Below, one piece after another: positions 4,200 to 5,091 of a DNA stretch of 63,988 nt. This stretch comes from Clostridia bacterium (GTDB lineage Bacteria; Bacillota; Clostridia; Oscillospirales; Acutalibacteraceae): assembly GCA_017516485.1 (NCBI GenBank), contig JAFXCH010000043.1:1-63988 (forward strand), given 5' to 3'. The position numbers and the translations under genes were made by a program. The notes beneath the pieces were generated by a model. The model saw only the letters and a list, made by a program, of their open reading frames with translations. It had not been told where the DNA came from and searched no databases. The first letter of the stretch is position 1; the number at the start of each line of letters is the position of its first letter.

Positions 4200-4288
4200 G
4201 GAGAGATACCGAAGTGGTTATAACGGAACGGTCTTGAAAACCGTCGTACGGCAACGTACCGTGGGTTCGAATCCCACTCTCTCCGCCA
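4200..4288 (+). tRNA. tRNA-Ser (TGA)
   Basis: Class II cloverleaf: acceptor GGAGAGA/TCTCTCC, anticodon loop CTTGAAA with anticodon TGA, a long variable arm (GTACGGCAACGTAC), discriminator G73 and encoded CCA. Confidence 0.97.
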
Positions 4289-4341: not shown

Positions 4342-4431
4342 GGAGAAGTACCCAAGTGGTGAAGGGGCTCCCCTGCTAAGGGAGTAGGTTGGGTGACTGG
4401 CGCGAGGGTTCAAATCCCTCCTTCTCCGCCA
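4342..4431 (+). tRNA. tRNA-Ser (GCT)
   Basis: Class II cloverleaf: acceptor GGAGAAG/CTTCTCC, anticodon loop CTGCTAA with anticodon GCT, long variable arm, G73 and encoded CCA. It follows the first tRNA-Ser by 53 bases and shares its transcript. Confidence 0.97.
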
Positions 4432-4433
4432 AA

Positions 4434-4473
4434 AAAGAAGTAACTTTTGTCTACCAAAAGTTACTTCTTTTTT
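4434..4473 (+). terminator. Terminator of the tRNA-Ser operon
   Basis: A 15-16 bp perfect stem (AAGAAGTAACTTTTG and its complement) followed by a T-run, starting three bases after the tRNA 3' end. It should isolate the downstream hairpin array from tRNA transcription. Confidence 0.92.
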
Positions 4474-4475
4474 AT

Positions 4476-4649
4476 CCAAGCCGCAGGCTTGGTATATCAT
4501 CACGACGCAGTCGTGTATATCATCAGCCCCTTTGGGGCTGTATCTCATCACGCGTCAGCGTGTATCATCCTGCGGCTTGATGAGATACAATGCTTCGCAT
4601 TGATGATATGCCGCAACAAGTTGCGGATGATATACAAGGCTTCGCCTTG
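4476..4649. repeat. Mini-hairpin array with nested complementary linkers
   Basis: Seven tiny hairpins (5-7 bp stems, 3-4 base loops such as GCA, TTT and TTC) lie at 4476-4492, 4501-4515, 4524-4540, 4549-4562, 4588-4602, 4611-4626 and 4635-4649. Linkers in the first half read TATATCAT (4493-4500), TATATCAT (4516-4523) and TATCTCAT (4541-4548). In the second half they read ATGAGATA (4580-4587), ATGATAT (4603-4609) and ATGATATA (4627-4634). They are complementary in nested order, and the one variant linker is matched by a compensating change. A half-hairpin at 4569-4579 is an 11-base perfect complement of 4477-4487. Everything could fold into a rod of four-way junctions with paired side hairpins. 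It lies between a terminator and the next gene's promoter. Confidence 0.92.
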
Positions 4650-4675
4650 ATTTGCTTTCAAAAAAGCAGTATAAT
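4647..4675 (+). promoter_or_regulatory. Promoter fused to the last array hairpin
   Basis: TTGATT (4647-4652), 17-base spacer, TATAAT (4670-4675). The -35 box begins inside the 3' arm of the final hairpin. Transcription should start near 4682, at the ribosome binding site GGAAGGAG. Confidence 0.7.
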
Positions 4676-4717
4676 ATTTTTGGAAGGAGTGGTTGTATAT
4701 CAAAAAATTATTTGCTG

Positions 4718-5044
4718 ATGTATTCCGAACAACTTGCAACAGAAATAGAATTGCTTTGCCACGAGATTAAGGCGCCATCAAATACTCTTTTCCAAATCCG
4801 TAAGAGTTCAAGCAGCGTTTATGCAAACATCCGTGAAGCAAACTACGGACAAAGCAAAGCTGATATGCTTTCTAAATTTGAGATTTCCCTGAAAGAATGT
4901 AGTGAAACCGAAGGGTGGTTGCAGTTATTATTTAACACAAAGGGTATCGATGAAGCAACATTCAAAAAAAACAGAAACCTCTGCGGCCGAATCAGAAGGA
5001 TGTTAATTGCCAGTTGTAAAACATTGAAGGAAAATGCGAAATGA
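4718..5044 (+). CDS. Four-helix-bundle protein (S23/23S-rRNA IVP family)
   Basis: At least 108 residues, all helical. Family pattern: a first helix EQLATEIELLCHEI, then the conserved turn RKSSSSVYANIREANYG, followed by SKFEISLKECSETEGWLQLL as in S23/IVP-type bundles. The family includes proteins encoded in intervening sequences of 23S rRNA and the Avd protein of diversity-generating retroelements; these bind nucleic acid. The start is uncertain. GGAAGGAG is at 4682-4689, family-like sequence (SKNYLL) begins near 4697, but the codon at the ideal distance is ATA (4697). The first in-frame ATG is 4718 and a TTG lies at 4712. The adjacent hairpin array is its likely partner or target. Confidence 0.82.
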   Translation: MYSEQLATEIELLCHEIKAPSNTLFQIRKSSSSVYANIREANYGQSKADMLSKFEISLKECSETEGWLQLLFNTKGIDEATFKKNRNLCGRIRRMLIASCKTLKENAK

Positions 5045-5055
5045 TAATAACACCC

Positions 5056-5091
5056 AAGCAGATTCATCCTCACGGATGAGTCTGCTTTTTT
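5056..5091 (+). terminator. Terminator of the four-helix-bundle gene
   Basis: A 14-bp perfect stem (AAGCAGATTCATCC and its complement), tetraloop-sized loop, then a T-run. It follows the stop by 12 bases, making hairpin array, promoter, gene and terminator one compact unit of about 620 bases. Confidence 0.92.

Follow-up and report, generated by a model that had tools for sequence, protein, structure and literature searches.

Gut-1 consists of consecutive perfect hairpins joined by a constant UGAAAU linker in gut bacteria, and has been rated a certain RNA (Weinberg et al. 2010, PMC2864571). In its passages on the motif, that paper gives no tRNA context, S23 context or function. REP, BIME and REPIN sequences are short palindromes, each with a constant foot, set in opposite orientations and believed to be non-autonomous mobile DNA; in REPs and REPINs a GTAG or CGTC tag lies at the palindrome end and RAYT transposases are associated with them (PMC3733652). 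The 23S rRNA IVS is a stem-loop element with terminal inverted repeats and an S23-family ORF in its loop. It lies inside 23S rRNA, is excised by RNase III and has been called selfish, and the S23 proteins are described as having no known function (PMC4990558).

The window, a stretch of 63,988 nucleotides from a Clostridia bacterium, carries a hairpin array at 4476-4649. Like Gut-1, the family of this array has perfect hairpins in series on a constant linker and occurs in gut bacteria; the Rfam Gut-1 model differs in spanning a forward half only, and the linker of the window family is another one. The likeness to REPs and their RAYT genes extends to one protein family being tied to many dispersed repeats, here the S23-like proteins. 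Unlike REPs, the arrays have no GTAG or CGTC tag, their units starting with a TATATCAT-type linker in 33 aligned arrays; their partner is not a Y1 transposase, and the hairpin sequences are varied, with five copies in the window genome. An S23-family ORF that goes with a stem-loop element recalls the IVS (window ORF, PF05635, E 1.6e-17), whereas the window array has multiple hairpins and lies behind a tRNA and upstream of the S23-like gene. Rfam finds no rRNA in the window, where the array stands behind tRNA-Ser. As in tRNA-targeting integrative elements, the array unit directly adjoins the 3' end of a tRNA, a copy of which it carries in some cases, but a three-sequence seed search found no integrase in 98 of 99 array loci. 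The tRNAs of the window genome that do have an integrase nearby (Thr-CGT and Arg-ACG) have no array.

Layout of the array and its neighbours

The features of the locus are as follows.

4200..4288, + strand: tRNA-Ser(TGA) (ARAGORN; Rfam tRNA)
4342..4431, + strand: tRNA-Ser(GCT), CCA-ended, docking site of the element (ARAGORN; Rfam tRNA; sequence)
4432..4473, + strand: terminator, a perfect palindrome with an A-run 5' and a T-run 3', which travels with the array (sequence; copy comparison)
4476..4492, + strand: hairpin H1, CCAAGCC GCA GGCTTGG (sequence, fold, aligned homologues)
4493..4562, + strand: forward half, TATATCAT-H2, TATATCAT-H3, TATCTCAT-H4 (sequence, motif count, alignment)
4493-4500, 4516-4523 and 4541-4548, + strand: forward-half linkers
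4570..4579, + strand: H1' (CTGCGGCTTG), complement of the H1 5' arm and loop, covarying with H1
4580..4649, - strand: inverted half (sequence, aligned homologues)
4580-4587, 4603-4610 and 4627-4634: inverted-half linkers ATGAGATA, ATGATATG and ATGATATA
4588-4602, 4611-4626 and 4635-4649: inverted-half hairpins H5, H6 and H7
4647..4675, + strand: promoter of the S23-like gene, -35 TTGATT, 17 bp spacer, -10 TATAAT
4652..5044, + strand: S23-like ORF (23S rRNA-IVP, four-helix-bundle family; PF05635 E 1.6e-17; PDB 2rld E 8.4e-15)

The first-pass annotation of this DNA had described seven hairpins (H1-H7) with loops of 3-4 bases, and three TATATCAT-type linkers followed by three inverse ones; both are seen in the sequence at 4476-4649. 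The block also follows a tRNA terminator and reaches into the promoter of the S23-like gene (PF05635), as had been noted, with the -35 TTGATT beginning in the last bases of H7. H1' and the terminator are parts absent from that description, the one covarying with H1 and the other travelling with the array. Homology of the S23-like ORF starts at about 4697. At 4690-4705 the ORF reads ATA where homologues have their ATG start, and it may have another start or be decaying.

The motif TATMTCATCA occurs five times in the window against 0.31 expected, four of these inside the array block. Folding of 4460-4670 gives -88.9 kcal/mol (z -8.1) for the + strand and -85.8 kcal/mol (z -7.75) for the - strand, and on either strand none of 200 shuffles folds as well. 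The block had been called an unusual structure that is neither a CRISPR, a simple terminator nor a REP. The first three points hold; where a CRISPR would have unrelated non-palindromic spacers, the segments between linkers are near-perfect palindromes. The contrast with REPs fails, because inverted foot-plus-hairpin units are the look of BIMEs and REPINs, and the arrays have such inverted palindromic units (linker order FFFRRR in 31 of 83).

Copies of the array and their place behind tRNA genes

The block belongs, as one copy, to a large dispersed family of hairpin arrays behind tRNA genes in gut bacteria. A blastn search of its own genome with the block finds, apart from the block itself, strong matches at C24, C9, C30 and C20. 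Of these five copies, three adjoin a tRNA end or a 3' fragment of a tRNA, and the other two are near contig starts without an intact tRNA upstream; in three of the five the distance to a contig end is under 200 bp (chance about 2e-5). Within the genus, the window array as query matches 8 of 11 genomes at E values up to 1 (G009 at 0.35), and a second array as query matches all 11, weakly in G004, G007, G008 and G009 (E at least 0.08); real arrays are present in seven of the 11. The linker pattern, two linkers 8-24 bases apart, is found in 43 of 300 family genomes and 29 of 135 genera, with the matches in G109 and G138 judged by eye not to be hairpins, and the reversed pattern has no match in the same 300 genomes. 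Named genomes hold at least 119 stretches with the pattern. Among the 80 listed, most come from MAGs of gut or rumen origin assigned to Clostridia, Oscillospiraceae or Ruminococcaceae, and some from unrelated taxa, where the matches are mostly not hairpins. No array was counted in the stretches of viral contigs with the pattern: stems do not exceed 3 bp in 118 of 121 parsed segments, and the remaining three represent a single sequence. Phages and plasmids gave no blastn match to 4430-5060, and carriage by either has no support. No description of tRNA-docked arrays was found in openly licensed PMC papers.

From the fetched loci 91 arrays were parsed and 83 kept (L008 included; 82 in later counts), the excluded ones having an H1 that does not start with CC and being mostly reverse readings; near-identical orthologues (L021/L026/L027) are included in these counts. 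The linker order among the 83 is FFFRRR in 31, FFFRR in 17 and FFFR in 9. Linkers are near-invariant across genera, with units beginning TATATCAT-C in the 33 aligned arrays, and the same hairpin alleles are found again in different genera.

The 3' ends of tRNA genes are classic entry points for mobile DNA. The plan of the arrays is a tRNA CCA, a perfect terminator, H1, three TATATCAT units, H1', three inverted units and often the -35 of the next gene. In copies with at least 140 bp of upstream sequence, a tRNA 3' end lies within 70 bp in 52 of 77, covering 24 tRNA kinds, and inspection by eye shows a remnant of a tRNA 3' end in about eight of the remaining 25 (L012, L023, L087, L102, L111, L113, L173, L205). 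CC[AC]AAA precedes the terminator in 73 of 82 arrays. The terminator usually ends in TTTTTTTATCC while the rest of its sequence varies; one version is found again behind tRNAs for Ser, Thr, Gln (3' fragment) and Leu. Where the 3' end is complete, 29 of 70 arrays have a last hairpin that gives a -35 together with a -10 matching at five or six positions, against 5.5 expected for the -10 alone, and the spacing is 17 bp in 26 of these 29; this hairpin-overlapping promoter is absent in the other 41. Locally, the unit would terminate tRNA transcription and, in some 40% of copies, also give the following gene its -35.

A second class of tRNA insert was also seen, in L369 (Trp), L381 (Pro), L382 (Gln), L388 (Arg-CCG) and L393 (Leu-GAG), and in L087 and L102. 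These inserts, of about 150-250 bp, have an inverted copy of the host tRNA T arm (from the anticodon arm in L102), a multi-helix core, a direct copy of the tRNA 3' end with CCA in most, and then a terminator. A tandem pair stands behind tRNA-Pro(TGG). Rfam has no family for them at the gathering cut-off.

Arrays of the same plan with other linkers are present in the window genome, for which 28 tRNA matches were inspected, a few of these running off contigs. Family A, that of the window, is found at Ser-GCT, Thr-GGT and Gln-CTG; family B, with GTGAAGT/ACTTCAC linkers, at Glu-TTC and Gly-GCC; and family C, with TGAAAT/ATTTCA linkers, at Leu-CAA and Ala-GGC. The remaining inspected tRNAs have no array. 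The forward half of the sister array behind tRNA-Leu(CAA) (L395) matches Gut-1 (RF01706) at 51.1 bits, over the cut-off of 50, while the window array, at 16.3 bits, is below it; the UGAAAU linkers of Gut-1 are absent from the window, where the linkers are TATATCAT/TATCTCAT. Gut-1 is found in 53 of 120 family genomes, 42 of them over the cut-off, with up to 34 matches per genome. Among 30 fetched Gut-1 loci, eight begin no more than 90 bp after a tRNA end, 20 have an inverted half and five have no clear start. Of 20 family B loci, a tRNA end lies no more than 50 bp away in five and no more than 250 bp away in two. The GTGAAGT-linker arrays of L407, L408, L412 and L413 lie close behind the stop codons of protein genes, most of them preceding a terminator-like hairpin; because of this placement they are likely to be part of an mRNA 3' end.

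Near-identical units stand behind unrelated tRNAs. The terminator and array of the window (Ser-GCT) are 94.3% identical over 175 nt to those of L169 (Leu-CAA in another Clostridia MAG), a record that ends inside the array and makes downstream comparison with the window impossible. L099 (Ser-GGA) and L168 (Arg-ACG) are 91.9% identical over 210, and L161 (Trp) and L177 (Val-CAC) 93.3% over 178, neither pair having a downstream match; all three identities are from among the matches listed. In seven alignments identity starts at the CCA, or at the T-run if the terminators differ, and stops at the last hairpin or close to it; in one tandem pair the promoter is shared as well. The array unit extends from the tRNA CCA, terminator included, to about the last hairpin. 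A tRNA-Gly before thiT has a family A array in G001, G002, G003 and G006, as does G005, where the tRNA was not seen; in the window's own genome the array at this place is of family B, and a second G001 copy of tRNA-Gly has no array and another gene in between. The cognate tRNA 3' end is copied behind the array in 3 of 53 arrays, against 1 of 2652 non-cognate comparisons. No target-site duplication or clean empty site was seen at these loci. Arrays seem to pass between tRNA genes.

At tRNA-Ala(CGC), the arrays of L073 and L076 are followed by different first genes, S23-like in one case and inorganic-pyrophosphatase-like in the other. The swap begins at the start codon, and both flanks are shared: array, promoter and RBS are 97.9% identical and the flank past the swapped gene is again shared, at 89%. 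Second tandem arrays in L064, L084, L090 and L101, from four genomes of different genera, are preceded by a common stretch of about 45 nt (TTTTCAGGCACATTTCATTCGTGTCATTAAGTTCAAA and variants). An integron-like gene-cassette system at tRNA 3' ends, with the array as recombination site and the next gene as cargo, would account for this swap, for the stretch common to the tandem arrays and for the many kinds of first gene. It is very unlikely, since many first genes are ordinary chromosomal ones, thiT is a stable neighbour, S23-like genes are over-represented and an integrase is present in 1 of 99 array loci.

That count comes from a three-sequence seed search for tyrosine recombinases. Together with Y1 transposases these formed the scope of the mover search, which gave no mover. 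A nearby integrase as the mover is unsupported at 1 of 99 loci. A Y1 transposase occurs in 7 of 11 genus genomes and its presence does not match that of arrays. G010, which is 99% complete, has an array and no Y1 match, and G007 has Y1 and no array; a Y1 or RAYT enzyme as the mover is unsupported by these two genomes. In G003 a Y1 transposase lies about 2 kb behind an array.

Pairing within the array and its action as DNA or RNA

Pairing was counted in 33 aligned FFFRRR arrays, using a structure drawn by hand from the window array. Seven of 40 FFFRRR arrays, in which the last hairpin was unrecognised or the pattern longer, were left out of the alignment, and H4, which was misaligned, was excluded from the pair count. 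The drawn structure is paired in 95.6% of 1876 cells, and its covariation score is 0.290 against 0.092 when shuffled and at most 0.05 with slid partners. Pairs changed on both sides (n=25) are in hairpins in 22 cases and in linkers in three. The hairpins are not a chance product. H1 and H1' are paired in 93.3% of cells, with a covariation score of 0.423 against 0.144. In 62 of 76 arrays the array's own H1 and H1' have 8 or more complementary bases in common; for mismatched combinations, related H1 variants included, the count is 436 of 4326. The H1 hairpin and H1:H1' pairing are mutually exclusive, a layout by which the element could switch.

The first-pass annotation had linked its model to the existence of other copies with conserved pairing, and many were found with hairpin pairing kept. 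Its proposed "internal covariation" of linkers fared differently. For the nested pair F3:R1 in 40 FFFRRR arrays, 4 arrays have both TATCTCAT and ATGAGATA, 13 have TATCTCAT without ATGAGATA, 5 have ATGAGATA without TATCTCAT and 18 have neither, with no association between the two (Fisher p=1.0), and covariation of linkers across homologues is absent within family A. Six of eight positions in each linker helix are invariant in the 33 aligned arrays and are therefore uninformative for or against pairing; the variable positions are often unpaired (15 of 33 arrays at columns 98/147 and 12 of 33 at 19/222). Across array families both linker halves do change jointly, to other words each with its own inverse, for which either inverted units or pairing would suffice. 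A ladder of TATCTCAT/ATGAGATA-covarying linkers as a general rule is rejected on this p value, and a ladder of four-way junctions is possible but unsupported.

Closely related hairpin pairs have 130 double Watson-Crick changes against 161 single ones. This, and the hairpin alleles recurring in different genera, would fit a passive by-product, in which functionless intergenic palindromes are perfected by template switching or gene conversion and tolerated behind tRNA terminators. Such an origin is highly improbable, because drift would not keep the linkers near-invariant across genera, the FFFRRR order common, H1' following H1 and S23-like genes linked to arrays.

Base pair types differ between the hairpins and tRNA stems. 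Interior hairpin pairs flanked by Watson-Crick pairs (n=855) comprise 814 Watson-Crick, 18 G.T, 8 A.C and 15 other; the acceptor and T stems of 141 distinct tRNAs of the fetched loci have 78 G.U and 7 A.C of 1128. The G.T fraction of the hairpins is below that of the tRNA stems (p 4e-7), and the G.T:A.C ratio is smaller (p 0.007). The surplus of G.T over A.C in the hairpins, 18 to 8 (p 0.08), is a hint of + strand RNA. Loop types do not decide between DNA and RNA, the forward-half loops being mixed (GNA 18 of 47, GNNA 13 of 37) and the inverted-half tetraloops mostly of the GNRA type when read on the unit strand (15 of 29). The low G.T fraction and the position between terminator and promoter favour, without proof, an element that acts as DNA rather than RNA. 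Of the options raised earlier, that of a DNA element or mobile end has the stronger support.

A structured, Gut-1-like noncoding RNA is unlikely, if by no means negligible. Its source would be transcription past the tRNA terminator or off the opposite strand, its compensatory changes would be selected at the RNA level, and the S23-like protein would bind it. Such an RNA would explain the strong hairpin and H1/H1' covariation, the 18 to 8 surplus and the 3' UTR position of family B. It would also agree with the match of the sister array to RF01706, rated a certain RNA (PMC2864571), and with S23 proteins being otherwise known from 23S rRNA stem-loop elements (PMC4990558). It sits poorly with an array placed between the tRNA terminator and the next promoter, as in the window and the 29 of 70 promoter-bearing copies, with G.U being a third as frequent as in tRNA stems, and with the low Gut-1 score of the window array. 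Some S23-linked and some family B arrays adjoin protein genes and not tRNAs, and arrays behind protein genes may be transcribed.

The S23-like gene and the proposed element

The S23 fold may be related to the Avd protein of diversity-generating retroelements. S23 loci were obtained by searching the genus with the window S23-like protein, blind to arrays. By eye, the gene in most of these S23-like loci directly follows an array of the same plan, and the arrays have differing linker words: TATATCAT, GCGATAT/TCGATAT, GTTATAT, AATGATG and TGAAAT. In L398 the S23-like gene is preceded by a family B array. Arrays were also scored automatically and blind to the linker, by a 7-mer repeated at the proper spacing and followed by its inverse. 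Of the S23-like genes 14 of 19 have this score upstream, compared with 5 of the 67 other ORFs in these loci (p 2e-8); one of the 20 S23 loci, L344, was not located, hence 19. Three of the five scoring control ORFs are around the same family-A arrays and two are at TATTCAT repeats of L349/L351. Four further S23-like genes have arrays by eye (L340, L342, L346, L347), and none is visible before that of L353. Over all loci, a score of at least 4 is found upstream of 28 of 39 S23-like genes against 22 of 600 control ORFs, a control that is biased because many of the loci had been fetched for their arrays.

Related S23-like proteins follow arrays of the same linker word. The nearest S23 relative below 90% identity shares the linker family in 21 of 27 cases, against a shuffled mean of 7.1 and with none of 2000 shuffles as high. 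The agreement is 13/13 for family A, 4/4 for C, 4/4 for D and 0/6 for B, E, F and G, with linker labels assigned by hand from array scores and 11 of the 39 S23-like genes without score or label. Since the genus genes have arrays upstream so often and the protein clades track linker type, the S23-like gene behind the window array appears to be no accident but a partner of the array. Its position at the array had been described correctly, the gene then being mentioned as a neighbour only.

Some genomes speak against a simple partner role. G001 (99% complete), G002 (96%) and G006 (86%) have family-A arrays and no family-A S23-like gene above about 50% identity. Of seven genus genomes with family-A arrays, three have such a gene (G000, G003, G005), and G010 has a remnant. 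The match between clade and linker could also come from array and gene travelling together instead of from recognition, and once the 13 family-A proteins are set aside, families C and D (8/8) are what supports it.

The reading preferred here, tentatively and at a little under an even chance, is a two-part DNA element akin to REPs and RAYTs, made up of a composite palindromic array and an S23-like gene. The unit has hairpins in two opposite orientations around a centre, H1', which mirrors H1. The linker would be the word read by the S23-like protein, on folded single-stranded DNA or a cruciform. An array with its S23-like gene, as in the window, would be the full element, and the many arrays without the gene would depend on it, in the way that REPs depend on RAYT genes. 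The unit would spread as DNA, by transposition, by recombination at tRNA ends or by gene conversion between copies. Cutting and joining would probably be done by a second enzyme, because S23-like proteins have no known catalytic function.

These composite palindromic repeats are real and out of the ordinary, with a plan related to Gut-1 and an S23-like protein as their likely partner. Whether they form a class of mobile elements in gut Clostridia is a wider proposal, possible but doubtful. Each member would pair an S23-like four-helix-bundle protein with a cognate array, with clade-specific linker words (TATATCAT, GTGAAGT, TGAAAT/Gut-1, GCGATAT and others). Several families would dock at tRNA 3' ends, gene-less dependants would spread, and movement would take place on folded single-stranded DNA.

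In the loci examined, the Gut-1 motif and the S23 (23S rRNA-IVP) proteins, two unexplained things, are joined in that both occur with arrays of the same plan. If the mobile element class is real, it would give S23 proteins and Gut-1 RNAs one shared role. A widespread element that docks at tRNA 3' ends without an integrase of its own would point to a recombination route not yet described.
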